From Bacteroidota bacterium (GTDB lineage: Bacteria; Bacteroidota; Bacteroidia; Sphingobacteriales; Sphingobacteriaceae): a DNA stretch of 64,000 bases. The notes under the pieces are model-generated. The model worked only from the letters and a program-made list of their open reading frames with translations, did no database searches and was not told where the DNA came from. The DNA lies in contig JABDHD010000007.1 in assembly GCA_013285685.1 (NCBI GenBank), positions 1-64,000 of the forward strand. Reading direction: 5' to 3'. Position 1 is the stretch's first letter. Each line of letters starts with the position of its first letter. Positions 4,668 through 26,807 of the stretch are shown here, piece by piece. Made by a program: the position numbers and the translations under genes.

Positions 4668-4700
4668 AAACTTACGAAGTTTTCAAAACTTCGTAAGTTT
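4668..4700. repeat. Perfect 15-bp-arm palindromic hairpin
   Basis: Arms 4668-4682 and 4686-4700 are exact inverted complements (AAACTTACGAAGTTT) with a 3-base loop. It lies 70 bases after the Gfo/Idh gene and 90 bases before the DUF6090-like gene. It could end transcription in both directions, but only three T residues close the stem. The rest of 4598-4790 contains short direct repeats of ATTCGTGAAATTCG type and no gene. Confidence 0.8.
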
Positions 4701-4790
4701 CGCTCAAAATGCCAAAGCGACAGGAATTCGTGAAAATTCGCTCCTATTCGTGAAATTCGTGTCAATAAATTAGTGTCTATATAATATTGA

Positions 4791-5516
4791 ATGGCCGAAG
4801 ACGAGATCATAAAAAAGCACACCAAAGCCGCTTACAAAGCATGGCGCGACCCTGAAAAAGATTGGAAGCACAAGCTTAAGGAAATCCTGCTTGAGGTGCT
4901 GATCATTGTTTTCGCGGTTAGTGTTTCCATTTGGTTTCACAATTGGTCGGAAAGCATAAAGGACCACCACGAGGAAAAAGAATTTTTGAAAGGCTTAAAA
5001 GGCGATATTCAGGCCGATCTGAAAGAAATGAACAGCGACAGGGCGGCCCTTCGCAAAGGATTTTTGGCTGTGCGGTATTTCGAAAAGGTTGGCGCCGGGC
5101 AAACATTGAAAGGAGACAGTCTCAATAAAAACCTTTGGATATTTTTTTCGCAGGCGCAAATAAATCCGCGTATCGGCAGGTATGAGGCTTTAAAGGCAAG
5201 CGGCCGGTTTGACATTATTACCAATAAAAAATTGCAATATGATATCATTGACCTTTATCAAAAGGATTTCCCGGAAATTTTCAGACTTAACGCGTTTATG
5301 AATTCGTTAATAGCCGATAAGGTTGATCCCTATATCGGCGATTACATATCGTTTGATAGTAAAGGGGTTACTAATGCTGAGCTGATGCTGCGAAAACCCA
5401 AAATGCGCTTTTTGCTGTTACAGTGCGAGGGTATTTCCAACAGTGCAGAGGCATATTCACGGGGCATCAGCGAAGGCAATCAAATAATAAAAGAGATCGA
5501 CAAAGAATTACAATAA
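4791..5516 (+). CDS. Single-pass membrane protein resembling DUF6090 family
   Basis: A 241-residue protein with a charged N-terminus (about 1-35), one membrane segment EVLIIVFAVSVSIWFHNW near residues 42-59, and a soluble alpha-helical remainder. The segment HNWSES followed by KEFLKGLKGDIQADL is typical of the Bacteroidota DUF6090 proteins, which usually read INNWNE and a helical domain after the membrane helix. No catalytic motif is seen and function is unknown for the family. The downstream TIM-barrel gene begins 2 bases after its stop, so the two are probably co-transcribed, but a functional link is not evident. Confidence 0.7.
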   Translation: MAEDEIIKKHTKAAYKAWRDPEKDWKHKLKEILLEVLIIVFAVSVSIWFHNWSESIKDHHEEKEFLKGLKGDIQADLKEMNSDRAALRKGFLAVRYFEKVGAGQTLKGDSLNKNLWIFFSQAQINPRIGRYEALKASGRFDIITNKKLQYDIIDLYQKDFPEIFRLNAFMNSLIADKVDPYIGDYISFDSKGVTNAELMLRKPKMRFLLLQCEGISNSAEAYSRGISEGNQIIKEIDKELQ

Positions 5517-5518
5517 AT

Positions 5519-6574
5519 ATGAAAACCATAAAAGGCCCTGCAATATTTATAGCACAATTCATCGGCGACGAGGCGCCGTTTAATAGTTTGGAAAGTATTT
5601 GTACCTGGGCAAAAAACCTGGGGTACAAAGGCGTTCAGCTGCCAACGCTTGATCCGCGCTTTATCAATCTGCAAAAAGCTGCAGAAAGTAAAACTTATGC
5701 CGACGAGCTGAAAGGCAGGGTAAATGCCTGCGGCGTTGAGATTACCGAACTTTCTACCCACCTGCAGGGGCAATTGGTTGCGGTGAACGCCGTTTATGAC
5801 ACATTATTTGATGGTTTCGCGCCCGAAAATCTGCGTGGTAATCCAAAGGCACGGCAGGCGTGGGCTGTGCAGCAATTAAAATACGCGGCAAAGGCTTCAC
5901 AAAATTTGGGTTTGAATGCTTCCGTTACCTTCAGCGGCGCGTTGTTATGGCCCATGGTTTACCCCTGGCCGCAAAGGCCGGCAGGTATTGTGGATACCGC
6001 TTTTGAGGAATTGGCTAAACGCTGGACACCAATCCTGGATGTTTACGAAGATTGTGGTATCGACCTGTGCTATGAAATTCACCCGGGCGAAGATTTGCAC
6101 GACGGCATCACTTATGAAATGTTCCTGGATAAAGTAAATCAACACAACCGTGCCTGCCTGTTATTTGACCCCTCGCACTTTGTTTTGCAATGTCTTAATT
6201 ACCTGGAATATATCGACAACTACCACGAGCGCATCAAAATGTTCCATGTAAAAGATGCCGAGTTTAATCCTACCGGTAAACAGGGTGTTTACGGGGGGTA
6301 TCAAAACTGGATCGACCGCGCGGGCCGTTTCCGTTCATTAGGCGATGGGCAAGTTGATTTTAAAGGAATTTTTAGTAAACTTACACAATATAACTACCCG
6401 GGTTGGGCAGTGTTGGAATGGGAATGTGCACTGAAACACCCGGAGGACGGCGCAAGGGAAGGTGCTGAGTTTATTAAAAACCATATTATAAGGGTTACCG
6501 AAAAAGCGTTTGATGATTTTGCGGCATCGGGTTCAAATGATGCATTTAACACGAAAACGTTAGGCATTGATTAA
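5519..6574 (+). CDS. Sugar phosphate isomerase/epimerase (xylose-isomerase-like TIM barrel)
   Basis: A 351-residue protein. The ATG at 5519 is preferred because the longer reading would extend 32 residues into the upstream gene with unrelated composition. Putative metal ligands of the AP-endonuclease-2-like barrel are visible: YEIHPGED (Glu), LLFDPSHF (Asp), MFHVKDAEF (His/Asp) and VLEWECA (Glu). The family isomerises or epimerises sugars and related polyols, and some members act on keto-sugars. There is no signal peptide, so it is cytosolic. Together with the Gfo/Idh enzyme at 3428 it could complete conversion of an imported oxidised sugar. Substrate is unknown. Confidence 0.87.
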   Translation: MKTIKGPAIFIAQFIGDEAPFNSLESICTWAKNLGYKGVQLPTLDPRFINLQKAAESKTYADELKGRVNACGVEITELSTHLQGQLVAVNAVYDTLFDGFAPENLRGNPKARQAWAVQQLKYAAKASQNLGLNASVTFSGALLWPMVYPWPQRPAGIVDTAFEELAKRWTPILDVYEDCGIDLCYEIHPGEDLHDGITYEMFLDKVNQHNRACLLFDPSHFVLQCLNYLEYIDNYHERIKMFHVKDAEFNPTGKQGVYGGYQNWIDRAGRFRSLGDGQVDFKGIFSKLTQYNYPGWAVLEWECALKHPEDGAREGAEFIKNHIIRVTEKAFDDFAASGSNDAFNTKTLGID

Positions 6575-6629
6575 TATGGATATGCTTATTATATTGACAA
6601 TTGTTTAATAACACGCATCGCTTCTACAA

Positions 6630-6950
6630 ATGGACGAAATTCATTCAAAAATCATAGCTGATTTAAACCTTGATATAAAAGTCTTAGATATGCAATTAGA
6701 CGTATTGTTGACTCAAAATATCGACTTAAAGAAACAGCTAAATGAAAAGTTAGTCGAAATTGGAAATGCAAATAATACCATAAACGAGTTATGTTCTTGT
6801 TTAGAAAATTTGCAAGTTACAAGTAAAGCGGCCATAGAAGAATTAATAATCCAAAGAGATCAGCTCCAGGTTCATTTAAAGGATGTCACAGATAAGGCGA
6901 TGGAAGCTTCGATAGTGTACAATGAGCTGATTGAAAAAAAATCGAAATAA
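6630..6950 (+). CDS. Small coiled-coil protein, unrecognised
   Basis: A 106-residue protein made almost entirely of heptad-like helix (IIADLNLDIKVLDMQLDVLL, then QLNEKLVEIGNANNTINEL). No signal peptide, membrane segment or catalytic motif. Codon use and base composition are clearly more AT-rich than the sugar genes on both sides, with many AAA, ATA and TTA codons, which suggests a different origin. It is flanked by short AT-rich spacers and has no obvious operon partner. It could be a structural or adaptor coiled coil; no function is proposed. The long open frame with coherent amphipathic pattern supports a real gene. Confidence 0.6.
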   Translation: MDEIHSKIIADLNLDIKVLDMQLDVLLTQNIDLKKQLNEKLVEIGNANNTINELCSCLENLQVTSKAAIEELIIQRDQLQVHLKDVTDKAMEASIVYNELIEKKSK

Positions 6951-7060
6951 CGGTAACCTGTGAAAAATATATGTGCGCAATTTTTAGGTTGCCGGTTATT
7001 AAAATGAAAATGTTCTGGAAACGAACCAATTTAAACTAACCATAACTAAATTATTGAACA

Positions 7061-8284
7061 ATGCAAACTAACCGTACAGCGTTATTCAGGGCCAGTTGTT
7101 TGTCCCTGTTGGTAACTTCATTATCATTTGGTATCCGGGCAGGCATACTTAATAAGCTTGGATCCGATTTTCACCTCGATAAGACACAACTGGCTTCAAT
7201 TACGGCGACCGCTTTTTGGGGTTTTCCGCTGGCTGTTGTATTTGGCGGAGTGATTGTAGATATCATTGGAATGAAAAGGCTGCTGATCCTTGCCTTCATA
7301 TTTCATCTTTTAGGGATTGTGCTAACCATTAGTACGCCATATTTGTCAAACCCGTTTTGGACGTTATTTTCTTCAACCTTATTAATCGGGCTTGCTAACG
7401 GTACGGTGGAGGCAGCGTGCAACCCTCTGGTTACTACGCTTTATCAGGATAATAAAACAACTAAGCTAAACCATTTTCATTTGTGGTTTCCTGGTGGTAT
7501 TGTAATCGGCTCTTTACTGGTGCTTGTTTTTAATAAGATCGGGCTTGGCTGGCAAATACAGGTAGCAACCATGCTTATACCTACTTTGATATACGGATAT
7601 TTGTTTTCGCGACTTGATTTTCCTGTTACTGAGCGCGTTTCATCAGGTGTTTCAACAGCCGGGATGTATAAAGCGCTTTTGAACCCATTGTTTTTGTTCA
7701 TGTTTATTTGCATGTTCGGCACAGCAATAACCGAGTTATTTACAGGACAGTGGATAGATGTATTGTTGAAGAATGTGACCCAGAACGCCATTTTGATATT
7801 GACTTTGGATACCGGAGTAATGGTAGTTGGGCGTGCTTTCGCCAAACCGGTTTTAAAACTGTTTTCACCGCAGGTTTTGTTATTGATCTCGACCATTTTA
7901 GCTGCATTAGGCATTTACCTCCTGAGCACTTTAACAGGTGACGCTGTTTTCTTCGCCGCAATAATTTTTGGTATGGGTGTTTGTTATTTTTGGCCAACTA
8001 TGCTTGGTTTTGTTAACACGAACCTGCCAAAAACCGGTGCAATTGGTTTAAACTTAATGGGTGGTGCAGGAATGTTCGCGGTTTCTGTTTATACCATTTT
8101 TATGGGTGCTCATTATGATAATATTGTGAAGGCAGCGGGCGGAGATAACAGTACTGCCGGGCAGCAGATATTACAAACCACGCTGATAATCCCACTTGTA
8201 TTAATTGTAGCTTTTACCGGTTTAGTTATTTACATGCGTTTCAAAGGAAAGACTGCTCCGGCAATAGCATCTGCGGCACACTAA
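7061..8284 (+). CDS. MFS transporter, sugar-type (FucP-like)
   Basis: A 407-residue protein with about 12 hydrophobic segments. After the fourth segment it has GLANGTVEAACNPLVTTLY and HLWFPGGIVIG, the pattern of the FHS/FucP-like branch of the major facilitator superfamily, which moves sugars with protons. It lies between the sugar isomerase gene and the cytochrome c/NupG pair. A likely role is import of a mono- or keto-sugar released in the periplasm. The substrate cannot be read from the sequence; no substrate-binding Asp/Glu pair of true FucP was verified. Confidence 0.82.
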   Translation: MQTNRTALFRASCLSLLVTSLSFGIRAGILNKLGSDFHLDKTQLASITATAFWGFPLAVVFGGVIVDIIGMKRLLILAFIFHLLGIVLTISTPYLSNPFWTLFSSTLLIGLANGTVEAACNPLVTTLYQDNKTTKLNHFHLWFPGGIVIGSLLVLVFNKIGLGWQIQVATMLIPTLIYGYLFSRLDFPVTERVSSGVSTAGMYKALLNPLFLFMFICMFGTAITELFTGQWIDVLLKNVTQNAILILTLDTGVMVVGRAFAKPVLKLFSPQVLLLISTILAALGIYLLSTLTGDAVFFAAIIFGMGVCYFWPTMLGFVNTNLPKTGAIGLNLMGGAGMFAVSVYTIFMGAHYDNIVKAAGGDNSTAGQQILQTTLIIPLVLIVAFTGLVIYMRFKGKTAPAIASAAH

Positions 8285-8340
8285 AAAAGAATAAATCGTA
8301 ACTTTAAACATCCCAATAAAAATCAATAAACTCACCCAAA

Positions 8341-8736
8341 ATGAAAAAAGTTCTCATAGTTCTGGCTATCAGCGCGGCAATGCTCAGCGCCTGCGGTGGC
8401 GGGGGTAAATCCGGCGGCGCCGACAGCTCGGCAGCAGCAAAACCTGATTCAGCAGCAGCACAAAGATCAGTCGACACAACGAATGCAGGCGGTAAATTAA
8501 TTGCCAAGAACGATTGTTTAACCTGCCATAAGATCGACACCAAGGTGATCGGCCCGTCGTATGCAGATGTAGCTGCGAAATATCCGTCTACAGAGGCTAA
8601 TATTGATACGTTGGCCGACAAAGTGATCAAAGGCGGTTCGGGGCATTGGGGCTCTGTAGCGATGGCCGGGCATCCAACAGTTTCGGAGGCTGACGCAAAA
8701 GCCATGGTTACCTATATTCTTTCGCTAAAAAAATAA
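8341..8736 (+). CDS. c-type cytochrome lipoprotein (c551/c552-like)
   Basis: A 131-residue protein with a lipoprotein signal (ISAAMLSAC, lipid Cys at 18), a Gly/Ser/Ala-rich linker to about residue 48, and one class I cytochrome c domain. The haem site CLTCH is at 59-63, GPSY follows at 71, and the distal Met is probably Met108 in VAMAGHP. It would sit on the outer face of a membrane and take electrons from periplasmic dehydrogenases, here most plausibly the GMC/small-subunit enzyme. It lies 11 bases before the NupG-like permease gene, so the two probably share a transcript. A TAACTTTA stretch at 8299-8306 could be its -7 element. Confidence 0.9.
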   Translation: MKKVLIVLAISAAMLSACGGGGKSGGADSSAAAKPDSAAAQRSVDTTNAGGKLIAKNDCLTCHKIDTKVIGPSYADVAAKYPSTEANIDTLADKVIKGGSGHWGSVAMAGHPTVSEADAKAMVTYILSLKK

Positions 8737-8747
8737 GCACCTATAAA

Positions 8748-9998
8748 ATGACGGCAGGCATCCGCATTAAGCTTTCGCTAATGATGTTCCTCGAATTTTT
8801 TATTTGGGGAGCATGGTTTGTTACGATGGGGACGTACCTGATGACGAATTTGCACGCTACCGGCGTACAAAATGCCAGCGCTTATGTAACCCAGGCTTTT
8901 GGAGCGATACTGGCGCCTTTTGTCGTGGGACTTATTGCCGATAAGTATGTTTCGGCCCAAAAAATACTGGGCGTATTGCATTTGGGCGGCGCAGCGTTAA
9001 TGTATTATTGTACGGTGGCCGGAAACTTTACACAGTTCTATCCGGGCATTTTGCTATACATGATCATTTATATGCCAACAATTGCCCTGGCCAATTCGGT
9101 AGCATTCAGGCAGCTGACTAACCCTAATAAGGAGTTTCCTTTTATCCGGGTTTTCGGCACCTTAGGATGGATGGTCGCCGGACTTTTAATAGGATGGTTT
9201 AACTGGGAACACAAGGGCAGCCTCGCACTCACTTTTCAAATGGCAGCTATTGCGTCACTCATCCTCGGGCTGTTCAGTTTTGCTTTGCCTGACACGCCGC
9301 CTGCAAAAAGAGGGCAAAAAGTTACTGTAGGCGAGATTATGGGGATAGAGGCTATCGGCCTGCTAAAAAGAAGATCCTTCCTGGTGTTTTTCCTTGCTTC
9401 GGTAGCAATTTGTATCCCGCTAGCTTTTTATTACAACTTTACCAACCCCTTTTTAAACGAAGTTGGCATGAAAAAAGCGGCGGGCATTCAATCGCTCGGC
9501 CAGTTTTCTGAGTTATTTTTTATGGCCGCCATGCCGTTTTTCTTTGTACGTCTCGGCGTAAAGAAAATGCTGGCTATCGGCATGCTGGCCTGGGGGCTGC
9601 GTTACCTGTTTTTTGCTTATGGTGATGCAGGCAACAACTATTGGATGCTTATTGCAGGTATTGCACTTCATGGTATTTGTTACGATTTCTTTTTTGTCAC
9701 CGGTCAGATTTATACCGAAAACCACGCCGGCGAACGCTTCAAAAGCTCAGCACAGGGGTTTATTACCCTGGCAACCTACGGTGTGGGGATGTTAGTCGGT
9801 TATATTATATCCGGGCCTATTGTGGACCATTGGCGAACCGGTGAGTCATCGCACAATTGGCAAACCATTTGGCTCATACCAGGTGGTATTGCCGTAGTGG
9901 TTCTGATTTTATTCTTATTATTCTTCCGCGACAAAGAACACACCGAAATGAGACCGGGTTTAGATATTGAGGAACCTTCTCCGCAAATAGAAATATAA
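8748..9998 (+). CDS. NupG/XapB-type nucleoside:H+ symporter-like MFS permease
   Basis: A 416-residue, 12-segment membrane protein. The start (LSLMMFLEFFIWGAWFVTMG) and FIRVFGTLGWMVAGLLIG are typical of the nucleoside:H+ symporter branch that includes NupG and XapB. Bacteroidota relatives are often found in sugar-catabolic clusters rather than with nucleoside genes, so the cargo here may be a glycoside or keto-sugar rather than a nucleoside. It sits between the cytochrome c gene and a Tat-exported hydroxypyruvate-isomerase-like barrel whose start is 12 bases downstream, which supports one operon. Confidence 0.82.
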   Translation: MTAGIRIKLSLMMFLEFFIWGAWFVTMGTYLMTNLHATGVQNASAYVTQAFGAILAPFVVGLIADKYVSAQKILGVLHLGGAALMYYCTVAGNFTQFYPGILLYMIIYMPTIALANSVAFRQLTNPNKEFPFIRVFGTLGWMVAGLLIGWFNWEHKGSLALTFQMAAIASLILGLFSFALPDTPPAKRGQKVTVGEIMGIEAIGLLKRRSFLVFFLASVAICIPLAFYYNFTNPFLNEVGMKKAAGIQSLGQFSELFFMAAMPFFFVRLGVKKMLAIGMLAWGLRYLFFAYGDAGNNYWMLIAGIALHGICYDFFFVTGQIYTENHAGERFKSSAQGFITLATYGVGMLVGYIISGPIVDHWRTGESSHNWQTIWLIPGGIAVVVLILFLLFFRDKEHTEMRPGLDIEEPSPQIEI

Positions 9999-10010
9999 AC
10001 GCAACCAATT

Positions 10011-10898
10011 ATGGCAGACAAACAAAACAGGAGATCGGCGATCAAAAACATAGTGGCCGGCACGGCGGCAGTTACCGCAGCAGGCATGTTTTCATCCTTT
10101 AAAACAGAAGAACGAAAAGAAATGCTGACAAATGCGCTTAAAGGCAATATTAATCATTCCGTTTGTCCCTGGGCATACAAGATGCCACTGGCCGATCTTT
10201 GTGTGGCAGCGAAAGACATAGGCCTGGTAGGTATTGATCTGTGCGGGCCGAAGGAATGGCCGGTAATTCAGAAATACGGCCTCGATTCGCCGATGTGTAA
10301 TGGCGCCGAGATCAACCTGACCGATGGATTTGGGGATAAACAATTTCATGCCACGCTGTTTAAAAATTATTCGGAGATGATCCCCCTGGTCGCGAGGGCC
10401 GGTTACACAAACCTGATCTGTTTTAGCGGCAGCCGAAGAGGGAAAGACGACGAAACCGGCTGGAACAATTGTGTGGAAGGGTTGAAACCCCTGATCACTA
10501 TTGCCGAAAAACACAAGGTAGTATTAACCATGGAGCTTTTAAACAGTAAGATCGACCATAAAGACTATCAGTGCGACCGCGTAGAATGGGGTGCTGAACT
10601 GGCCAAAAGACTGGGTTCCGAAAACTTTAAACTGCTTTTTGATATTTATCACATGCAGATAATGGAAGGCGATATCATCAGGAACATAACCAACTATCAC
10701 CAGTATATTAACCATTACCATACCGGTGGCATACCCGGAAGGCATGAAATAGATGATACCCAGGAACTATATTACCCTGCTGTAATGCGGGCAATAGTAG
10801 CCACCGGGTTTAAAGGCGTTGTTGCCCAGGAATTTGTTCCCTCGCGGCCGGATCAAATAGGCTCGTTGAGGCAGGCTATCAGTATTTGTGATGTGTGA
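10011..10898 (+). CDS. Tat-exported hydroxypyruvate-isomerase-like TIM barrel protein
   Basis: A 295-residue protein. A twin-arginine signal NRRSAIKNIVAGTAAVTAAG is followed by an AP-endonuclease-2-like barrel. The start of the mature part (NINHSVCPWAYKMPLADLC) and likely metal-site segments LTMELLNSK, LLFDIYHMQ and INHYHTGGIPGRHE match the hydroxypyruvate isomerase branch. Classical Hyi is cytosolic, so the export signal points to a different substrate, probably a periplasmic keto-sugar or its cleavage product. The final segment VVAQEFVPSR supplies the last Glu ligand. Confidence 0.82.
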   Translation: MADKQNRRSAIKNIVAGTAAVTAAGMFSSFKTEERKEMLTNALKGNINHSVCPWAYKMPLADLCVAAKDIGLVGIDLCGPKEWPVIQKYGLDSPMCNGAEINLTDGFGDKQFHATLFKNYSEMIPLVARAGYTNLICFSGSRRGKDDETGWNNCVEGLKPLITIAEKHKVVLTMELLNSKIDHKDYQCDRVEWGAELAKRLGSENFKLLFDIYHMQIMEGDIIRNITNYHQYINHYHTGGIPGRHEIDDTQELYYPAVMRAIVATGFKGVVAQEFVPSRPDQIGSLRQAISICDV

Positions 10899-16348: not shown

Positions 16349-17785
16349 ATGCCGCTTGAAAGACGCGATTTTGATGCAATAGTAGTCGGCTCCGGCCCGA
16401 ACGGATTAGCGGCCGCGATACTGATGCAGCAAAAGGGTCTTTCTGTATTATTGATTGAAGGAAAAGAAACCATTGGAGGGGGCCTGCGCTCTGCGGAGTT
16501 AACGCTGCCGGGATTTACCCACGATATTTGTTCAGCGGTGCACCCATTGGCAGTCTCTTCACCCTTTTTTTCGAAGCTGCCGCTGGATCAGTTTGGTTTG
16601 GAGTTTATTTACCCGCCAATCGCCGCGGCGCATCCTTTTGACAACGGTTTGGCGGCGGTGATCAAATCATCCATCTTAGAAACTGCTGCTTTGCTGGAAG
16701 CTGACGAAAACGCTTACCTTGACCTGATGCAACCGATTGTCCGGGATTGGCCCAGGATTGCCCCGGATGTACTGGCGCCGCTGCATTTTCCAAAATACCG
16801 GTTCGCGATGGCAAGTTTTGGCTTAAAGGCGCTGACGTCCGCATCGCATTTATCCAAACGTTTTAAGACTGAAGAGGCTAAAGGACTGCTGGCCGGAATG
16901 GCGGCGCATTCTATTCAACCCTTAACCAATATAGCCACCTCGGCCGAAGCGCTGGTTTTAATGGCTTTGGCGCATTTAAAAGGATGGCCTGTTCCCAAAG
17001 GAGGATCGAACCAGATCGCGAACGCATTGGCGGGTTATTTTAGATCGATAGGAGGTAAGTTTGAAACTAATCTTTATATCCAGTCCCTGGAGCAGCTTCC
17101 GTCTGCGCACGCGGTTTTATTTGATATTACCCCAAAACAACTGCTGCAAATTGCAGGACACAAATTCTCATCGTTGTACAAATGGCAATTGGAACGGTAC
17201 CGATATGGCATGGGAATTTTTAAGGTAGACTGGGCATTAGATGGGCCAATCCCTTTTACTGCCAGCGGATGCGAAAAGGCGGGTACGGTACATATCGGCA
17301 ATACATTTGAAGAAATAGCAAGTACGGAACAACAAAGTTCGGACGGTAAGATTACCGAAAAACCTTTTGTTTTGCTGACACAGCCGTCATTGTTCGATCC
17401 GACACGCGCACCGGATAACAAACATACAGCCTGGGCTTATTGCCATGTGCCAAATGGATCGATGACTGATATGACCGATGCGATCGAAAAACAAGTGGAA
17501 CGTTTCGCCCCCGGTTTCAGGGAACGGATACTTGCAAAGCATTCTATGAATTCCGTTCAAATGGAAGAATATAACCCCAATTATATTGGCGGCGATATCA
17601 ATGGCGGCGTGATCGATATCGGACAACTGTTCACCCGCCCGGCCCTGCGCTGGTCGCCATATAAAACTTCGGCAAAGGGATTGTATATCTGCTCTTCGTC
17701 CACACCGCCGGGAGGCGGCGTGCATGGGATGTGTGGCTACCATGCAGCCAAACGGGCGTTGAAAGATGTTTTTAAAATTGTCTGA
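16349..17785 (+). CDS. Phytoene-desaturase-like NAD(P)/FAD-dependent oxidoreductase
   Basis: A 478-residue flavoprotein. The dinucleotide-binding motif AIVVGSGPNGLAAAILMQ is at residues 9-26 and is followed by GGGLRSAELTLPGF, the second FAD contact. The C-terminal FAD segment is GLYICSSSTPPGGGVHGMCG near residues 442-461. This is the CrtI/PYROXD2-like branch rather than a true carotenoid desaturase, and no other carotenoid genes are present. No signal peptide is seen. Its start directly follows the NIPSNAP stop. The substrate is unknown; oxidation of an isoprenoid or other hydrophobic compound is possible. Confidence 0.87.
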   Translation: MPLERRDFDAIVVGSGPNGLAAAILMQQKGLSVLLIEGKETIGGGLRSAELTLPGFTHDICSAVHPLAVSSPFFSKLPLDQFGLEFIYPPIAAAHPFDNGLAAVIKSSILETAALLEADENAYLDLMQPIVRDWPRIAPDVLAPLHFPKYRFAMASFGLKALTSASHLSKRFKTEEAKGLLAGMAAHSIQPLTNIATSAEALVLMALAHLKGWPVPKGGSNQIANALAGYFRSIGGKFETNLYIQSLEQLPSAHAVLFDITPKQLLQIAGHKFSSLYKWQLERYRYGMGIFKVDWALDGPIPFTASGCEKAGTVHIGNTFEEIASTEQQSSDGKITEKPFVLLTQPSLFDPTRAPDNKHTAWAYCHVPNGSMTDMTDAIEKQVERFAPGFRERILAKHSMNSVQMEEYNPNYIGGDINGGVIDIGQLFTRPALRWSPYKTSAKGLYICSSSTPPGGGVHGMCGYHAAKRALKDVFKIV

Positions 17786-17825: not shown

Positions 17826-17892
17826 TAACGCTGCCATTCTTTAATCCTAAAATTCCTTTAATCATATAAATCTTAGTTCCAAATTCGAACTT

Positions 17893-17912
17893 TTTGTCCG
17901 ATATCGGACAAA
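17893..17912. promoter_or_regulatory. Perfect 20-bp palindrome, likely enhancer site for the efflux operon
   Basis: TTTGTCCGATATCGGACAAA is an exact palindrome centred between 17902 and 17903. It lies about 61 bases upstream of the -24 element and about 86 bases upstream of the predicted transcript start. This is the arrangement expected for a dimeric NtrC-type activator site. The operon it precedes encodes such an activator (24149-25522). Confidence 0.75.
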
Positions 17913-17961
17913 TTCACAACAATATAAAAAACTAAATGACACATAACCAGTAAATTATGTT

Positions 17962-17977
17962 TGGTACACCTATTGCA
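17962..17977 (+). promoter_or_regulatory. Sigma-54 type -24/-12 promoter of the efflux operon
   Basis: TGGTACACCTATTGCA matches the TGGCAC-N5-TTGCA consensus, with GG at 17963-17964, GC at 17975-17976 and exactly 10 bases between them. Transcription would begin near 17988, 14 bases before the ATG at 18002. A longer open frame from 17957 would overlap the promoter, which argues for the later start. Confidence 0.78.
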
Positions 17978-18001
17978 TATAACTATGCAATACAAGGTAC
18001 T

Positions 18002-19249
18002 ATGGACAAAGAGATAACACAAGAGGTTTCAGCGCAGAACAGGAAGAAGACGATTTTTGTCGTGATCATATCTGTAGCGGTTTTGGTGATGGCGGTATGG
18101 TTACTGCGCACCACCCTTAAATCAACCGTAAAGAGATCGGAGATAACCACCGCTGCGGTAAAAACCGGCAATATCGAAAATACGATCAACGCAACCGGAG
18201 AGGTATTGCCGGAATTTGAAGAAATACTTACCAGCCCCATCAGCGCATCCATCAAAAGCGTGAGCCTTGACGAGGGCAGCAAAGTACAGGCTGGCCAATC
18301 CATTCTGACGCTGGATAAAACCTCTGCCCAAAACGACTTCGACAAACAGAAATTTCAACTTGAATCAAAAAGGGATGAAATCCAAAAACTGAAGCTCGAT
18401 TTAAATAAAAGCTTCTTCGATATACAATCCAACAACGATATCAAGCAATTACACATCAGCGACCTGGCGGATGCCGTTGAAAACGCCAAACGCCTGTTTG
18501 CAGCCGGCGGCGGTACCCGCGAAAGCATCGAGCAGGCCCAATTGAACCTTAAAGTGGCGCAGCTGGAAAAGAAGCAGATCGAGAACGAGATCAAAAATAA
18601 ACAGCAAACCATGCAGATCGAAATAAAAGAGGCTGAGCTGGCTGCAGATGTGATGCAAAGCGATCTGAATGTCCTGCAGCACAAGCTCGACCTGGCAAAC
18701 ATTGTGGCCACACGCGCCGGGGTGGTAACCTATGTAGATAAGAACATCGGCGCAAATATTAAAGAAGGTGAATCATTGGCAAGGATTGCCGATCTGAGCA
18801 GCTTTAAGGTGCAGGGAAGTATTTCCGATAATTCATTGGATCAGCTGCATGCCGGCACACCCGTGATTGTGCTGATCAATGACATCCAGTTGCGGGGGCA
18901 TGTGACAAATGTCTCTCCATCTATACAAAACAGTATTATCAGTTTCGATATACAATTAGACGACCGCAGCAACAAGGCCCTGCGGCCGAATATGAAAGTG
19001 GATGTTTACCTGGTTACGGCCGCACATACCCACGTGATGATGGTAAACAACGGCGCCGCATTTAAAGGGGCAAATACGCAGGACATTTTTGTGGTAAACG
19101 GCAATAAGGCTGTCAAGCGGACGGTACATATCGGACTGTCCAATTTCGACGATGTTGAGATTAAAGACGGCGTAAAACCCGGTGATGTAGTCGTCACGTC
19201 AGATATGAGCGCCTTTAAAAATTCAAGCGAAGTGACGATAGAGGAATAG
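18002..19249 (+). CDS. HlyD/MacA-type periplasmic adaptor subunit of an efflux system
   Basis: A 415-residue protein. One N-terminal membrane helix (TIFVVIISVAVLVMAVWLL) is followed by a barrel-sandwich half (ISASIKSVSLDEGSKVQAGQ). A long coiled coil (about residues 115-225, rich in Q, K and E) leads into the second lipoyl half (ATRAGVVTYVDKNIGANIKE) and a beta-barrel end. It would link the inner-membrane ABC permease to the TolC-type channel. The start at 18002 is chosen over 17957 because the sigma-54 promoter lies between them. First gene of a seven-gene set; the TolC gene follows closely. Confidence 0.9.
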   Translation: MDKEITQEVSAQNRKKTIFVVIISVAVLVMAVWLLRTTLKSTVKRSEITTAAVKTGNIENTINATGEVLPEFEEILTSPISASIKSVSLDEGSKVQAGQSILTLDKTSAQNDFDKQKFQLESKRDEIQKLKLDLNKSFFDIQSNNDIKQLHISDLADAVENAKRLFAAGGGTRESIEQAQLNLKVAQLEKKQIENEIKNKQQTMQIEIKEAELAADVMQSDLNVLQHKLDLANIVATRAGVVTYVDKNIGANIKEGESLARIADLSSFKVQGSISDNSLDQLHAGTPVIVLINDIQLRGHVTNVSPSIQNSIISFDIQLDDRSNKALRPNMKVDVYLVTAAHTHVMMVNNGAAFKGANTQDIFVVNGNKAVKRTVHIGLSNFDDVEIKDGVKPGDVVVTSDMSAFKNSSEVTIEE

Positions 19250-19254
19250 TTTGG

Positions 19255-19297
19255 AAGAGTCAGAAAAGTCCGGAAAGTCGGAAAAGTCCGAAAGAAA
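19255..19297. repeat. GAAAAGTCCGGAAAGTCGGA tandem words
   Basis: Short near-tandem units of AAAGTC-CGGAAAGTCGGAAAAG type fill the spacer between adaptor and TolC genes. Similar words, inverted, occur at 33617-33657 (CTTTCGGACTTTCC). The units could be read as coding from a TTG at 19251, but they would put 20 Ser/Glu/Lys residues ahead of a good signal peptide, so they are treated as non-coding. Confidence 0.5.
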
Positions 19298-19310
19298 AAA
19301 ACTAAGCAGA

Positions 19311-20765
19311 ATGAAACTTTTATTTACGATATTATTTTTAACGATCAGCCTTAAAGCATTTTGCGGTGGGGGCGATACCACGCGGCTTACGCTGGAGGAT
19401 GTGGTGGCGCTGGCCAAAGGTAACTCCATCGCTGCGAAACAGGCGGCCACTACGCGCGAAACCAATTATTGGGTATGGCGTACTTTTAAATCCAACTATG
19501 AGCCGCAATTATCATTAAGCGGCAATTTGCCCGGCTATAGTAAAACCAGCACGCCGGTGGTACAGCCTAACGGATCGATACTGTTTCAATCCATCCACTA
19601 CGACAATTCCGCGGTGACCTTGAATTTCAGCCAAACCATCACCGCCACAGGCGCTACGATTTACGGCGAGACGCAAATGCAGCGGTTTGACGATTTTGAC
19701 CATAACAGCATTTTATACAACGGCGTGCCCTACGCCATAGGGTTTAGCCAGCCCATCGGCCAGTATAACAGCCTTAAATGGGATAAAAAGATACAGCCGC
19801 TGCTGTACGATGAAAGCAAACAGGCCTACATAGAAGCGCAGGAACAGATATCCATCACCGCGACCGGCTATTTCTTTGACTTGCTGCTGGCCCAGGTAAA
19901 CCTGCAAACAGCGACCAATAATTTGGAGAACACCCAAAAGCTGTTAAAAGTATCTAACCTGAAATTTGAACTGGGCAAAGTATCCAAAAACGATATTTTA
20001 CAGTTGCGGCTGGAAGAACTCAATGCTAAAAAGGCAATGGGTACCGCAAAACGGGACGTGGAGATCGCCACCCTTAACTTAGGGGCCTATATTGGCCATG
20101 AAGGGGATGATAAACTGGTGCTGATGGTGCCGCAAACCATCAGCCAGATGAATGTTACCGCCGATAAAGTGCTGGCCCAGGCCTTTGAAAACCGGTCGGA
20201 CGCCATTGCTTTTGTGCGACGCATTGCCGAGGCTAAGCGCAATGTAGCGATAGCGCATGGCCAAACCGGTTTCACCGCAACTTTAACAGCCAACCTGGGT
20301 ACTTCAAATTCGGCAAGCAGTATTCCGGGAGTATACCGGTCGCCCCAAAACCAGCAGCTGTTGGAATTGCAGTTTTCCATACCAGTGCTGGACTGGGGCC
20401 GGTCGAAAGCCAAAATTAAAACCGCTGAAGCTAACCAGCAGCTGACGATAGATTCGGTTGAGCGCGACAAACAGACTTTTAAACAGCAAATTGTAACGCA
20501 GGTATCGCTTTTTAATATGATGCGCGAACAATTGGCCTATACCGCCGAGGCGGACAGCATCGCTTCCGAAAAATACAAAATTGCGCGCGACCGCTATGTT
20601 TTGGGCGACCTGAGCATCACCGACCTGAGCATCGCCTTTACCGAAAATGACCAGGCCAAACGGGATTACGTCCAATCCCTCCGTGATTTCTGGAGCGCTT
20701 ATTACGAACTGCGCTACCTGGCGCTATACGACTTTGAAAAAAATGAAAAGATAACTTATAAATGA
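19311..20765 (+). CDS. TolC-type outer-membrane efflux channel
   Basis: A 484-residue protein starting MKLLFTILFLTISLKAFCGG, a Sec signal; the ATG at 19311 is preferred to a TTG 60 bases upstream, which lies in a repeat. Two outer-membrane-factor repeats are visible, with TRLTLEDVVALAKGNSIAAKQ at the mature start, LKFELGKVSKNDILQL in the middle, LELQFSIPVLDWGRSKAKI, and KYKIARDRYVLGDLSITDLS near the end. The phrase PVLDWGR is strongly diagnostic of the family. It forms the outer-membrane part of the tripartite pump with the adaptor and the MacB-type ABC genes. Confidence 0.9.
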   Translation: MKLLFTILFLTISLKAFCGGGDTTRLTLEDVVALAKGNSIAAKQAATTRETNYWVWRTFKSNYEPQLSLSGNLPGYSKTSTPVVQPNGSILFQSIHYDNSAVTLNFSQTITATGATIYGETQMQRFDDFDHNSILYNGVPYAIGFSQPIGQYNSLKWDKKIQPLLYDESKQAYIEAQEQISITATGYFFDLLLAQVNLQTATNNLENTQKLLKVSNLKFELGKVSKNDILQLRLEELNAKKAMGTAKRDVEIATLNLGAYIGHEGDDKLVLMVPQTISQMNVTADKVLAQAFENRSDAIAFVRRIAEAKRNVAIAHGQTGFTATLTANLGTSNSASSIPGVYRSPQNQQLLELQFSIPVLDWGRSKAKIKTAEANQQLTIDSVERDKQTFKQQIVTQVSLFNMMREQLAYTAEADSIASEKYKIARDRYVLGDLSITDLSIAFTENDQAKRDYVQSLRDFWSAYYELRYLALYDFEKNEKITYK

Positions 20766-20771
20766 GGTGAA

Positions 20772-20848
20772 TCCGCCGTCGCTAAAGCTATGGCGGACGA
20801 GGAGCCGAAAGGCGAAAGGTAAAAGGCGAAAGGTAAAAGGAAGAAATC
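20772..20848. repeat. TCCGCC/GGCGGA hairpin and GGCGAAAGGTAAAA tandem words
   Basis: A small hairpin (TCCGCC 20772-20777, GGCGGA 20792-20797) is followed by tandem GGCGAAAGGTAAAA units at about 20810-20840. Then AATTCACTAACTC-type words of the family seen at 1737-3427 continue to 20909. The spacer splits the efflux operon between TolC and ABC genes and might lower downstream expression. Confidence 0.55.
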
Positions 20849-20909
20849 ACTAATTCAGTAACTCAATAACTCAATAATTCACAACTCACTAACTCACTAA
20901 TTGATTCCC

Positions 20910-21575
20910 ATGATACACTTACAAAACATCGAAAAAGTTTACCGCACCAGCACGGTGGAAACCCTGGCGCTCAATAGCATCAGCCTCGACATCGCCAAAG
21001 GCGAATTCCTGTCGATAATGGGCCCATCCGGCTGTGGCAAAAGTACCTTGCTGAATATAATGGGGCTGCTGGATGCACCCTCAAAAGGCCAGGTTAAGAT
21101 AGACAACCAGCAAACGGAACATTTAAAAGACAAGGAGCTGGCGCATTTCCGCAACCAGAAGCTGGGTTTTATATTCCAGAGCTACCATTTGATCAATGAC
21201 CTGCAGGTACTTGACAATGTAGAACTGCCGTTGCTGTATCGCGCGACAACTGCAAAAGAACGCAGGAAGCTGGCGTCAGAAGCACTGGAAAAAGTTGGCC
21301 TGGCCAACAGGATGAAGCATTTCCCAACGCAGCTTTCCGGCGGCCAAAAGCAACGTGTGGCCATTGCAAGGGCTATTGTAGGCCGACCGGAGATCATCCT
21401 TGCTGATGAGCCAACTGGTAACCTGGACAGCGCCATGGGCAACGAGATTATGGACATATTGACGCAGCTGAATCAAAATGACGGCACTACCATCGTAATG
21501 GTAACGCACGACGAAAATATGGCGCATAAAACGCATCGTTTGGTACGCTTGTTCGATGGTTCGCAGGTACAATAA
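20910..21575 (+). CDS. MacB/LolD-type ABC transporter ATP-binding protein
   Basis: A 221-residue ATPase from ATG 20910. It has Walker [10 protein letters not shown] near residue 38, the Q-loop at FIFQSYHLI, signature [14 protein letters not shown], Walker [13 protein letters not shown] and the switch His in VMVTHDEN. The [11 protein letters not shown] and TGNLDSAMG wording is typical of the family that powers MacB- and FtsX-type permeases. It would energise the two permeases encoded downstream, which lack their own ATPase domains. The spacing to the next gene is 23 bases. Confidence 0.93.
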
Positions 21576-21598
21576 TATCAACCTAAAAAATTAAGATC

Positions 21599-22825
21599 AT
21601 GCTAAAAAATTATTTTAAAATAGCCATAGCGGTTTTAAGGCGACGGAAGTTTTTCACCTTCATCAGCCTGTTTGGCATCAGCTTTACGCTGACTATATTG
21701 CTGGTGTTAACCGCATTTATTGAAAAGGTGGTGGGCGACAACTATCCCGACCGGAAAAGAGATCGCTCGTTATACATCGTGCGAATGGAAGAAGAAGGAA
21801 AAGGTAATATGAGTTCAGGTGCCCCGTCCTACTATTTCCTCGAGCATTTCACCAAAAACCTGAAGACACCTATTAATATTGCCATATCTTCCGGGGCCAA
21901 CGGTACCAATACCTACGTCAACGACAAAAAGATAGCCGTCAACTATAAATACACCAATGCGGCTTATTGGGACATCCTGGAATATGATTTCGTAGAAGGT
22001 AAAGCTTTTAACAAACAACAGGTGGATAATGCCGAGAAAGTTGCCGTGATATCGCAGGACATGAAAAATGAATATTTCGGCGATGTTCTATCGGTAGTCG
22101 GCAAATATATCGAAGCCGACAATGTAAAATACCGGGTTATCGGCGTAGTAAAAAATGTGCCGGTAACCAGCTATCTGACTTACAGCGATATCTACCTGCC
22201 CTACACTGTTTCCAAAAGCGATTACCGGAACAAGGGTTACCAGGGAGGGTATACGGCTGTCTTGCTGGCAAAGTCAAGCGGCGATCTGCAAAAAATGCAC
22301 GATGAATACGAACAGGTGGTACAAAAAATACCTATGGAAAGCAAGGATTTTAACAAGCTATACAGCCACGCTGACAAGTACATTGCTGCCTATGTTGATA
22401 CCGGTAACGAAAATCAATCGGGCGTAACGCTGGTGCTTACCATTATAAGCGTATTTGTATTCCTGTTTATGCTGCTGCCCACGTTAAACCTGGTGAATAT
22501 CAACATTACCAGGATCATGGAACGCTCATCCGAAATCGGCGTTCGCAAAGCATTCGGCGCCTCATCGCGCACGCTGGTATACCAGTTTATCGTCGAAAAT
22601 ATCATTCTAACGCTATTAGGTGGCGCTATCGGGCTGGTGCTTTCCGTAGTAGTGATTTATTTCATTAACAGTGCGCATTTGATAGCAAACCTCGAGCTTT
22701 CGGTAAACTTTATGGTGTTGTTTATCGGTTTGCTTATCTGCCTGGTGTTCGGTTTATTTTCAGGCGTTTACCCGGCATGGCGCATGTCTAAATTAAACGT
22801 AGTAACCGCCCTGAAAGCACAATAA
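21599..22825 (+). CDS. MacB/FtsX-type ABC transporter permease 1
   Basis: A 408-residue protein. One N-terminal membrane helix (FFTFISLFGISFTLTILLVL) is followed by a large periplasmic MacB-core-like domain (about residues 45-270). Three C-terminal helices surround SSEIGVRKAFGASSRTLVYQ, the conserved coupling segment of FtsX-type permeases. It ends GVYPAWRMSKLNVVTALKAQ. MacB-type systems use periplasmic force transfer to push substrates from the periplasm through TolC. It probably pairs with the next permease as a heterodimer. Confidence 0.9.
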   Translation: MLKNYFKIAIAVLRRRKFFTFISLFGISFTLTILLVLTAFIEKVVGDNYPDRKRDRSLYIVRMEEEGKGNMSSGAPSYYFLEHFTKNLKTPINIAISSGANGTNTYVNDKKIAVNYKYTNAAYWDILEYDFVEGKAFNKQQVDNAEKVAVISQDMKNEYFGDVLSVVGKYIEADNVKYRVIGVVKNVPVTSYLTYSDIYLPYTVSKSDYRNKGYQGGYTAVLLAKSSGDLQKMHDEYEQVVQKIPMESKDFNKLYSHADKYIAAYVDTGNENQSGVTLVLTIISVFVFLFMLLPTLNLVNINITRIMERSSEIGVRKAFGASSRTLVYQFIVENIILTLLGGAIGLVLSVVVIYFINSAHLIANLELSVNFMVLFIGLLICLVFGLFSGVYPAWRMSKLNVVTALKAQ

Positions 22826-22850
22826 TTATCAACCTTTAAATCAAGATATT

Positions 22851-24035
22851 ATGTTTAAGCATTTATTTAAACTGATCTGGAATAAAAAGAAGCAAAACTT
22901 TTTATTGATGTCGGAGATATTGGTCTCCTTCCTGGTCATATTCGCCGTATTTACGCTGGTAGTGTATTACTATCATAACTATAAAAAGCCAATGGGGATT
23001 GATTACCAGGACGTATGGGTGGTTACTTATGGCAACTCCTATCAAACCAAAAATACCGATTCGCTCGACTTATATTATCAAACGCTGGTACAAACCATTA
23101 AGGCGCTACCACAGGTAAAAGAGGTGGGTTTTACCGCCGGAAACATCCCTTTTACCCAAAACCGCAACTCGGGCGGTATTACATTTAATAACCAAAAGGC
23201 AGACGACATCGACTGGTATAACGTTGATGACAGTTACCGCAAAGTGTTTAACATGCAACTGCTGGAAGGCCGATGGTTTGACAAAGGGGACGATATTGCC
23301 AAAGATAAACCCATTGTGATCAATACCGACCTGAAAGAAAAGCTATTTGGCAGCGGCGAGGCACTTGGAAAGATCATTGGCGATGGCGACAACAAAAACA
23401 AGATGAAAATTATAGGCGTGGTGCAGAGTATAAAAATTAAAGGTGATTACGCCACTACCGGAGCCGGCCTTTATCAACGGATTGATACAGGATCGTACCG
23501 TTGGCTGGATAGAATGGTGATAAAGGTGACCCCAGACGCTGACGCAGCCTTTGAGGGAAAACTATATAAAACCATTGCCAATTACATGAAGAACTCGGAT
23601 ATCGAGATTGAACACATGACCGACAAACGTATCAGCATCAATTACTTTAGCCTGGTGCCAATGATCGCGCTGTTGATTGTGGCCTGTTTCCTGATTATTA
23701 ATGTGGCCCTCGGTTTATTTGGCGTGCTTTGGTATAATATTAACAAGCGGCGTGGAGAGATCGTTTTACGCAGGGCTGTTGGGGCCACAGGTAATGGTGT
23801 TTCAACACAACTCGTTAACGAGGCGATGATATTGGCTACACTTTCCTTAATTATCGGCGCCTTTTTCGCCGTACAGTTCCCGCTCCTGAATTTATTTAAC
23901 TTGCCCGCCAGTGTTTACATAATTGCCCTATTTTTATCGATTATATTTATTTACTTGCTGGTGCTGGTTTGCTCGCTGTATCCGGGCAAACAGGCGGCGG
24001 CGATTTATCCGGCGGTTGCTTTGCATGAGGAGTAA
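22851..24035 (+). CDS. MacB/FtsX-type ABC transporter permease 2
   Basis: A 394-residue relative of the preceding permease: N-terminal helix (LLMSEILVSFLVIFAVFTLVV), periplasmic domain (about 45-260), then three helices around RRGEIVLRRAVGATGNGVST. The ending YPGKQAAAIYPAVALHEE fits the family. Two different half-permeases and one ATPase suggest an asymmetric pump. It is the last transport gene before the regulators and is separated from them by an inverted repeat. Confidence 0.9.
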   Translation: MFKHLFKLIWNKKKQNFLLMSEILVSFLVIFAVFTLVVYYYHNYKKPMGIDYQDVWVVTYGNSYQTKNTDSLDLYYQTLVQTIKALPQVKEVGFTAGNIPFTQNRNSGGITFNNQKADDIDWYNVDDSYRKVFNMQLLEGRWFDKGDDIAKDKPIVINTDLKEKLFGSGEALGKIIGDGDNKNKMKIIGVVQSIKIKGDYATTGAGLYQRIDTGSYRWLDRMVIKVTPDADAAFEGKLYKTIANYMKNSDIEIEHMTDKRISINYFSLVPMIALLIVACFLIINVALGLFGVLWYNINKRRGEIVLRRAVGATGNGVSTQLVNEAMILATLSLIIGAFFAVQFPLLNLFNLPASVYIIALFLSIIFIYLLVLVCSLYPGKQAAAIYPAVALHEE

Positions 24036-24135
24036 GTCTGAACCGTTGATTAAGCTGATTTTATTGATTAAGCTGATTTGCCTGAAGCTAAGAATCAACG
24101 AAATCACAAAAATCAGCTTAATCAACGGTTAAGAC
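24036..24135. repeat. 27-nt-arm inverted repeat between permease and regulator genes
   Basis: The left arm at 24036-24062 contains AACCGTTGATTAAGCTGATT. The right arm at 24109-24135 is its inverted complement with one mismatch. The arms flank about 46 bases that include a partial third copy (TGATTAAGCTGATTTG). The structure begins at the permease stop and ends 14 bases before the regulator ATG, so it may uncouple expression of pump and regulator. A half copy is at 17786. Confidence 0.8.
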
Positions 24136-24148
24136 AAAATTTTAAAAT

Positions 24149-25522
24149 ATGATCCTGATCATAGACGATGATATTGCCGTAAGGGCTTCATTGCTCCTGT
24201 TGTTAAACGACGGGGGCTTTGATGCTTCGGCTTGTGCCGGCCCGGCGGAGGCGATGAAGATGATCAAAAAACAGCAACCGGAATTGATCATCCTCGATCT
24301 TAATTTTTCCAATGATACTTCCGGCAAAGAGGGGATGGAGCTATTGGGTAAGATCAAACAGATCAACCCAGCAATACCGATCATATTAATTACCGGTTGG
24401 GCGAGTATTGAGCTGGCTGTGCAGGGCATGAAGGCAGGAGCAAACGATTTTATCAATAAGCCCTGGGGCAATGAACATTTGCTGCAGTCGGTAAAGACGT
24501 TGCTTGACCTTAAGGAGAAGAAGACGGAACACCATACCCGCAAACAGCTGGATAAAACGTATAACTTTCCGCATATTATTGGCGAAGATTCCCAAATGCT
24601 GGAAATTTTGGAAACTATAGGGCGGGTGGCGACTACTGATGCGTCTATCCTGATTATGGGCGAAAGCGGGACAGGCAAAGAGTTGATTGCTGAGGCTATT
24701 CACGAAAACAGCCTTCGAAAAAATAAACCGTTCGTCAAAGTCAACCTTGGTGGTATCTCTACTTCACTTTTTGAAAGTGAAATGTTCGGCCACGTACGCG
24801 GTGCCTTTACGGATGCAAGGTTCGACAGGGCCGGCCGCTTTGAGCTGGCAAATAAAGGAACGATTTTTTTAGACGAGATAGGCGACCTGGACGGCGGTAG
24901 CCAGGTAAAACTGCTGCGCGTTTTGCAGGACCGCACCTATGAAGTGCTGGGCAGCAGCCGGACCAAAACGGTGGACGTGCGCGTGGTGTGCGCCACCAAC
25001 AAAAGCCTGGATGACATGGTAAGCAGGGGCTCGTTCCGCGAAGACCTGTTGTACCGCATTAATTTGATCACCATTTACCTGCCGCCCTTGCGCGACAGGC
25101 CAAAGGACATCCCACTGTTGGTTAATTTTTTCATCAGCAATTTAAAGGAAATTTATAACCGGCCTAAATTATCAGTGGCGACATCGGCTATTAAATGGCT
25201 GCAACAATTGCCTTTACCCGGCAATATCAGGCAATTAAAAAATTTGGTAGAGCGCACCATACTCGTTAGTAAAAACGATGAATTGGAAATAGAAGATTTC
25301 CGCTCCCAGCTGGAGTTGTCGCCTGTAAAAAAGGGCAATTTGCAACTGCCGGGTATAGGTACTTTAACTTTGGAAGAAGTGGAGGTTGCCATGATCAAGC
25401 GCGCTATGGAATATCACCACAACAAGGTATCAAAAGCTGCCGTATCTTTAGGGCTTACCCGCAGCGCCCTGTACCGGCGGCTGGAGAAGTATCAAATACC
25501 TTACGATGAGGCTGAGGACTAA
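24149..25522 (+). CDS. NtrC-type sigma-54-dependent response regulator
   Basis: A 457-residue protein with three domains. The receiver (1-120) has Asp50 in LIILDLNFS as phosphate acceptor and Lys104 in INKPWG. The AAA+ domain (about 142-370) has Walker A GESGTGKE at 171-178 and Walker B GTIFLDEIG at 237-245. A Fis-type helix-turn-helix (HNKVSKAAVSLGLTRSALYR) ends the protein. The sigma-54 contact loop reads GAFTDA (218-223) rather than the classical GAFTGA. It overlaps the kinase gene by 17 bases and probably activates the -24/-12 promoter at 17962. Confidence 0.93.
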   Translation: MILIIDDDIAVRASLLLLLNDGGFDASACAGPAEAMKMIKKQQPELIILDLNFSNDTSGKEGMELLGKIKQINPAIPIILITGWASIELAVQGMKAGANDFINKPWGNEHLLQSVKTLLDLKEKKTEHHTRKQLDKTYNFPHIIGEDSQMLEILETIGRVATTDASILIMGESGTGKELIAEAIHENSLRKNKPFVKVNLGGISTSLFESEMFGHVRGAFTDARFDRAGRFELANKGTIFLDEIGDLDGGSQVKLLRVLQDRTYEVLGSSRTKTVDVRVVCATNKSLDDMVSRGSFREDLLYRINLITIYLPPLRDRPKDIPLLVNFFISNLKEIYNRPKLSVATSAIKWLQQLPLPGNIRQLKNLVERTILVSKNDELEIEDFRSQLELSPVKKGNLQLPGIGTLTLEEVEVAMIKRAMEYHHNKVSKAAVSLGLTRSALYRRLEKYQIPYDEAED

Positions 25523-26807
25523 GTACATCTTATTTGTCGTTATCATTCACATGGTAGCGCTTGTCCTTGCCTGGTTTATTTTCTGCCAAAACAGGATATT
25601 CTTTATCATCTCGGAAGTATTTGTCATCATTTCAATTGTAATTGCCTGGCAGCTGTATGTACAATTGCTGCGGCCCTTAACAATGCTGATGCAAGGGGTG
25701 GAGGCTATTAAAGACCGCGATTTTAACGTAAAATTCCTGTCAACCGGCAAGTACGAGATGGATAAATTGATCGGAGTGTATAACCAGATGATGGATGAGC
25801 TGCGCGCTGAACGAACACGACAGGAGCAGCAGCACTTTTTCCTGGAGAAACTGATTTTTACTTCGCCTACCGGGATCATCATCCTTGATTTTGACGACCA
25901 CGTGCAGCAGATCAACCCCAAAGCATTACAACTACTTGGTTTTAAGGCCGAACAATTATTAAAGTATCCCGTGGACCGGCTGGAACACCCTTTGTTGCAG
26001 CAAATCAAGTATTTAAAATCAGGGGAGGCGATAGTTGTTAAACCTGATGGCGTGAGCACATTTAAGCTTCAAAAATCGCATTTTATCGATAGGGGCTTTT
26101 CGCGGCATTTCGTAATGATAGAAGACCTGACGGTTGAGATATTAGCCGCCGAGAAAAATGTTTATGGTAAGGTGATCAGATTGATGGCACACGAAGTGAA
26201 CAATACGGTTGGGCCCGTAAATTCCATCATGCAATCGGCATTGAAAACCACCCGGCTTTGGGAAAAAGACGACGTTAAGGCGGTAAAGGATGCCTTGCAG
26301 GTGGCCATTGACCGTAACCAAAACCTGAATTTATTTATGCGGAACTTTGCCGACCTGGTGAAACTACCCGCGCCGAACAGAAGGCCCCTTGACTTGCACA
26401 AGCTGGTCAATTCCATAAAAACGCTCATGCAAAGTAAAGCCGATGAAAAACATATCAACATTGATATACAGCTTGCTGACAGTCCGTTTATCGTACAGGC
26501 AGATGAGCAGCAAATGGAGCAGGCGCTTATCAATATTGTAAAAAATGCGATTGAAGCGATTGGGCGCGATGGGATGATCAGCATGCAAACATCTTTAGAA
26601 AATAAAACCCTTGTCATCTCTGATACAGGCCCGGGTATTGACGCTGCCAATGCCGCCAATCTTTTTTCCCCGTTCTTCAGCACCAAAAAAGACGGGCAGG
26701 GGATAGGCTTAACACTCGTACGCGAGATACTTGTAAATCATGGCTTTGACTTCTCCTTAAAGACCATAATTCAAAAGCAAACGGAGTTTACCATAGTGTT
26801 TCGGTGA
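25506..26807 (+). CDS. Sensor histidine kinase (NtrY-like) of the efflux operon
   Basis: A 433-residue kinase. Two membrane helices (about 7-27 and 31-50) leave only a few residues outside, so it probably senses the membrane or cytosol rather than a periplasmic ligand. A HAMP-like linker, a PAS-type domain (about 112-210), the phospho-acceptor His229 in RLMAHEVNNTVGP and an ATPase domain (IVKNAIEAIG, ISDTGPGID, GQGIGLTLV) follow. It is translated by overlap from the response regulator gene and is its evident partner. Its signal may be envelope stress or pump substrate; that is inference. Confidence 0.93.
   Translation: MRLRTKYILFVVIIHMVALVLAWFIFCQNRIFFIISEVFVIISIVIAWQLYVQLLRPLTMLMQGVEAIKDRDFNVKFLSTGKYEMDKLIGVYNQMMDELRAERTRQEQQHFFLEKLIFTSPTGIIILDFDDHVQQINPKALQLLGFKAEQLLKYPVDRLEHPLLQQIKYLKSGEAIVVKPDGVSTFKLQKSHFIDRGFSRHFVMIEDLTVEILAAEKNVYGKVIRLMAHEVNNTVGPVNSIMQSALKTTRLWEKDDVKAVKDALQVAIDRNQNLNLFMRNFADLVKLPAPNRRPLDLHKLVNSIKTLMQSKADEKHINIDIQLADSPFIVQADEQQMEQALINIVKNAIEAIGRDGMISMQTSLENKTLVISDTGPGIDAANAANLFSPFFSTKKDGQGIGLTLVREILVNHGFDFSLKTIIQKQTEFTIVFR

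Follow-up and report, generated by a model that had tools for sequence, protein, structure and literature searches.

A conserved palindrome and -24/-12 box suggest control of a MacAB-TolC-like exporter operon by its own NtrC-type regulator in Bacteroidota

Upstream of an operon of seven genes, which encodes a MacAB-TolC-like exporter together with an NtrC-type regulator and a histidine kinase, we identified a perfect palindrome followed by a -24/-12 box. We consider it very likely that the palindrome represents an enhancer and the box a sigma-54 promoter, and that the regulator encoded in the operon binds the palindrome and drives transcription of the operon. We infer binding, sigma-54 dependence, transcript start and the sign of regulation from sequence comparisons. 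According to the proposed mechanism, a signal would cause the kinase, which is encoded by the last gene, to phosphorylate the regulator, which would then assemble on the palindrome and on a degenerate copy located upstream of it, contact the sigma-54 RNA polymerase at a distance of about 50 bp and open the promoter. Pump, regulator and kinase would be raised together in a local positive autoregulation with apparently one target, and the first regulator molecules would presumably originate from basal transcription. We are less confident about the strength of the feedback than about the combination of enhancer, promoter and own regulator.

The palindrome TTTGTCCGATATCGGACAAA (17893-17912, not assigned to a strand) is located about 110 bp past the stop of the upstream FAD-oxidoreductase gene. 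As claimed in the earlier note, it is exact over its 20 bp, and no other perfect even palindrome of at least 20 bp is present in the window, i.e. the entire stretch of 64,000 nucleotides analysed here, for which 40 first-order Markov simulations gave an expectation of 0.10. No further copy with up to three mismatches was found within the window. All genome-wide scans were pattern searches, and in the draft genome (4.3 Mb, 71% complete) the core TGTCCG-N4-CGGACA, which corresponds to the conserved 16-bp sequence TGTCCGATATCGGACA at 17895-17910, occurs once at zero mismatches. The -24/-12 box TGGTACACCTATTGCA (17962-17977, plus strand) indeed has the GG-N10-GC spacing described before, matches TGGYAY-N5-TTGY and is conserved ahead of the gene start; the predicted transcript start lies near 17988, with a leader of about 14 nt. 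Only one additional strict match to TGG[CT]A[CT]N5TTG[CT]A is present in the window, at 41330 on the minus strand, and rpoN was found in the genome on another contig. Edge to edge, the 20-mer is separated from the box by 49 bp and the 16-bp core by 51 bp, so that the 61 bases given originally hold roughly from the centre of the palindrome to the GG, but not between the edges. A further sequence, TGATCGATATCGGACA, which reads on the opposite strand as the dyad variant TGTCCGATATCGATCA of many relatives, lies within the upstream coding sequence (17610-17625), probably by chance.

The operon (18002-26807, all genes on the plus strand) begins with a periplasmic adaptor of the HlyD/MacA-like type (18002-19249), whose start we place at the ATG at 18002 rather than at the in-frame ATG at 17957 ahead of the promoter, because homology begins at MDKEI. 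It is followed by a TolC-type outer membrane channel (19251-20765), assigned by profile match and conserved place, whose start may be located downstream of 19251, since homology begins inside the open reading frame, and by an ABC ATPase of the LolD/MacB type (20901-21575) and two MacB/FtsX-type permeases, A (21599-22825) and B (22851-24035). With its adaptor, TolC, MacB-type periplasmic core, FtsX permease domains and ABC ATPase, the system represents a tripartite ABC exporter of the MacAB-TolC type. The nearest named relatives are Mucilaginibacter. More specific assignments were rejected: the score for MacB proper (NCBIfam NF007826) was below the curated cut-off, with ATPase and permease being separate proteins; the darobactin exporter profiles DarC and DarD gave 76 of 450 and 258 of 375 bits, under their curated cut-offs; and Bce permeases of the BceB type have ten helices, a large loop and no adaptor, whereas two MacB-type permeases of about 400 residues and an adaptor are encoded here. 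That the operon ends in a sigma-54-dependent regulator and its kinase was confirmed. The regulator (24149-25522) belongs to the NtrC family and carries a receiver domain, an AAA+ sigma-54 interaction domain and a Fis-type helix-turn-helix domain with the helix LGLTRSALYRR, all above the Pfam cut-offs. Its sigma-54 contact loop reads GAFTDA, a variant of GAFTGA, which is shared by 141 of the 152 regulators analysed (window included), with GAFTGA in another four, i.e. one or the other in 145. The histidine kinase (25506-26807) comprises transmembrane helices at residues 8-26 and 32-50 separated by a loop of about five residues, a HAMP, a PAS and a HATPase domain. The same genome harbors a second module (L149, G000:C3:20000-36000, at 4535-10658), in which adaptor, ATPase and MacB-type permeases are oriented divergently from a further pair of regulator and kinase genes; the region between the two halves showed neither a clear dyad nor a clear -24/-12 box.

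The regulator lies inside the operon that it would control, and the order of pump genes, regulator and kinase is kept in 66 close relatives. The kinase gene overlaps the regulator gene, and the gap between permease B and the regulator is at most 25 bp in 44 of 65 relatives. The conserved order and the short gaps speak for co-transcription and for a positive loop, and from the genome comparison, activation of the pump operon most likely includes its own control genes; the loop claimed in the earlier note thus stands as a well-supported inference, short of a demonstration. One of the 66 relatives, Mucilaginibacter psychrotolerans, shows an apparent deletion (L100, 11313-12400) extending from within the TolC gene to within the regulator gene, with the kinase retained, which may be an assembly artefact. 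It is conceivable, though unlikely, that enhancer and regulator act as proposed while regulator and kinase are mainly transcribed from a separate promoter, so that no real positive loop exists. The gap of 113 bp in the window and the gaps of more than 25 bp in 21 of the 65 relatives would leave space for such a promoter, but the short gaps in the majority offer little room for it outside the permease gene, and the regulator and kinase genes come last in an operon that is co-directional and conserved. This alternative also draws on one draft genome (L109), in which pump and regulator are located on different contigs: the pump retains its dyad, and the regulator (L325, G947:C35:1030-2400) is 83% identical and has a helix matching this dyad, while neither a dyad nor a -24/-12 box was found within 1.5 kb upstream of it. 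This natural separation fits a regulator acting in trans, and, since the moved gene lacks dyad and promoter over this distance, the loop can apparently be lost and autoregulation is not universal.

The comparison of 81 upstream regions, i.e. 80 orthologues and the window, aligned on the -24 box, revealed that the -24/-12 letters are present in all of them, which supports the view that the box behaves as a real promoter element. The core dyad ends 51 bp upstream of the -24 box in 69 of the 81 regions, and in 75 regions this gap is within 50-52 bp; for the remaining six, a higher-scoring upstream copy of the dyad at a gap of 70-71 bp was chosen. By comparison, the distance from the box to the ATG is variable (11 to 35 bp). 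In two Chitinophaga loci (L095 and L099), just 11 bp separate the -12 box from the adaptor ATG, so that transcription may begin at this codon, or else the actual start codon may be located further in. Dyad and box carry about 1.2 bits of information per position, in contrast to 0.25 bits in the poorly conserved region from -125 to -68. Another dyad, weaker than the first, appears in the consensus 19 bp upstream of it (peak at gap 70), and the degenerate copy GTTCCAAATTCGAAC in the window (17875-17891, no strand assigned), recognised by eye, would correspond to this second dyad. Between clades the spacing of dyad and promoter is 51, 52-53 or 44-45 bp, the last of these determined by eye ahead of the adaptor gene in two distant families (L201-L204). 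As 44-45 bp is not a whole helical turn below 51-53 bp, the spacing is rigid within clades, but shifted between them.

Next to its position, the sequence of the dyad can be related to the regulator. For 152 regulators and their orthologous upstream regions from across the phylum, dyads were chosen by symmetry and distance without use of the consensus and accepted when a half-site carried G in its second and C in its fifth position, and the residue x in the recognition helix motif [ST]R-x-[AST]LYR was scored. Whereas 35 of the 152 rows failed automatic classification, helix residue and half-site base were concordant in all of the 117 classifiable cases: at half-site position 4, each of the 37 regulators with Phe at x was associated with G (GTGCG), and each of the 80 regulators with a different residue was associated with C or T (GTCCG/GTTCG). 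In addition, Gly at x pairs with TGTCCA in four of five cases. In a regulator tree built without the DNA-binding domain, helix residue and half-site base change twice, each time jointly; two independent pairs agree, which is too few for significance in a sign test, and one of these switches, between L226 and L322 of the same family, lies on long branches flagged by the tree program. The kinship of the sequences is the main limit of the co-variation test.

Scanning for further palindromes followed by -24/-12 sites, an idea contained in the earlier note, showed that the combination of dyad and promoter occurs almost nowhere but at this operon. A loose pattern, consisting of YCG-N4-CG, a fixed spacer and TGGYAYN5TTGYA, gave 22 matches in 151 genomes of the family, compared to eight for reversed-pattern controls. 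According to their coordinates, 18 of these precede the adaptor gene of this operon, one lies at an operon relic and three are chance-like, including a terminator-like sequence in the genome of the window itself. The relic (G094, L205, 1960-2220) consists of tandem dyads, a -24/-12 box and about 45 adaptor codons, after which the frame ends; the other operon genes were not found within the 13.5 kb fetched. Some distant orthologues have dyads or promoters that fall outside the strict dyad-promoter pattern. A search for the core dyad at two mismatches yielded 88 matches versus 227 for the reversed control, and therefore we claim no wider regulon. Elsewhere in the genome of the window (L187, G000:C83:6849-6928), a strong -24/-12 match precedes the gene of a small exported-type protein, with a terminator-like repeat where the dyad would be.

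Near-fixed spacing, near-confinement to the operon and co-variation with the recognition helix make the palindrome look like the binding site of the operon's own regulator, and the original prediction of such a site thus gains comparative support. We regard it as quite improbable that another factor, i.e. a repressor or a global regulator, binds the dyad while the NtrC-type regulator acts elsewhere. A dyad with a 4-bp spacer would suit other dimeric regulators, too, and it keeps a stricter distance to the promoter than sigma-54 enhancers usually do. However, such a factor would leave the co-variation of the half-site with the helix of precisely this regulator to be accounted for; the confinement differs from what is seen for sites of a global regulator, and the position well upstream of the polymerase footprint would be unusual for a repressor.

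With the operon's own regulator as the preferred activator, the nature of the promoter itself has to be considered. The sequence TAnnTTTG, which resembles the -7 element of the Bacteroidota primary sigma factor, overlaps the -24 box in the window (17956-17963) and in orthologues, at the same place in 32 of the 81 regions, and a basal promoter at this site could supply the first regulator molecules. Transcription of the operon by the primary sigma factor from this element, with an incidental match to the -24/-12 consensus, is very improbable in our view, as TAnnTTTG is absent from most regions in which the -24/-12 letters are kept, a -33 element at a fixed distance was not seen in the 81 upstream regions, and the regulator belongs to the sigma-54 activator class. 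A scan with the sigma-70 consensus, which does not model Bacteroidota promoters, was uninformative (18 found versus 16 expected), and an exact IHF-like consensus ahead of the -24 box occurs in just 14 of the 81 upstream regions. Finally, we give hardly any credence to the idea that the palindrome is unrelated to activation and serves the upstream FAD-oxidoreductase gene as an intrinsic terminator or RNA hairpin, and reject this reading: despite its location shortly beyond that gene, a T run after the dyad in most orthologues and terminator-like sequences in some distant relatives (L201), the copy in the window lacks a T run, all six arm pairs are intact in just nine of 78 orthologues, the T run is similarly common when the upstream gene has the opposite direction (18/23) or the same direction (43/49), an Rfam search gave no match, and both the near-fixed distance to the -24 box and the co-variation with the regulator would be left unexplained.

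For the proposed sigma-54 circuit, the kinase raises the question of the signal. In all 66 full-length close relatives, hydropathy indicates two hydrophobic membrane helices connected by a very short loop (about five residues), and no periplasmic sensor domain; this is the shape of intramembrane-sensing histidine kinases. Kinases of this shape partner Bce transporters, which are relatives of MacB (PMC7828314, PMC5985334). By analogy, we speculate that the pump may be the sensor and that the kinase may monitor the state of the MacB-type transporter. It is a tentative idea, which we hold to be somewhat less probable than its opposite, that this represents a Bacteroidota-wide counterpart of Bce systems, in which a tripartite MacB-type pump would sense for the kinase, and a dedicated sigma-54 activator would act on its own operon only, through a near-fixed enhancer and a one-residue recognition code. 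If the kinase indeed reads the pump, transporter-based sensing would be extended from Firmicutes to Bacteroidota. Independent of the signal, the predicted circuit offers a testable sigma-54 enhancer with apparently one target and near-fixed spacing in a phylum on whose sigma-54 circuits the literature searched contains little, and the relation of one helix residue to one half-site base makes it possible to test directly how Fis-type helix-turn-helix domains recognise DNA.

A sigma-54-dependent two-component system that activates its own operon is known in kind. Similar to ZraSR, for which autoregulation by ZraR is mentioned in PMC12316311, the system described here combines an NtrC-type regulator carrying a Fis-type helix-turn-helix domain with an adjoining kinase, a -24/-12 promoter and a predicted self-activation; unlike in ZraSR, the apparently single target is a seven-gene MacAB-TolC-like exporter, and the kinase is nearly devoid of a periplasmic part. 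With BceAB-BceRS of Firmicutes it shares a MacB-related ABC transporter next to a kinase lacking an extracellular sensor domain (PMC7828314, PMC5985334), but the output would proceed via sigma-54 and an NtrC-type regulator, the pump is tripartite with adaptor and TolC, and the kinase contains HAMP and PAS domains. Adaptor, TolC, and MacB-type permease and ATPase domains are those of MacAB-TolC, which is under PhoPQ control in E. coli and Salmonella (PMC5985334), whereas here the ATPase and the two permeases are separate proteins and a sigma-54 regulator is co-encoded. In a survey from 2025, COG0577/FtsX-like permeases of Bacteroidia were predicted to be under sigma-54 control, which the survey termed first evidence (PMC12316311). 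Our analysis likewise links sigma-54 promoters to this permease family in the same class, and in addition proposes an activator, an enhancer site and a feedback loop, none of which is named in the part of that survey considered here. What is unusual is that such a self-activating system is combined with a tripartite pump of the MacB type and with a kinase lacking a sensor domain.
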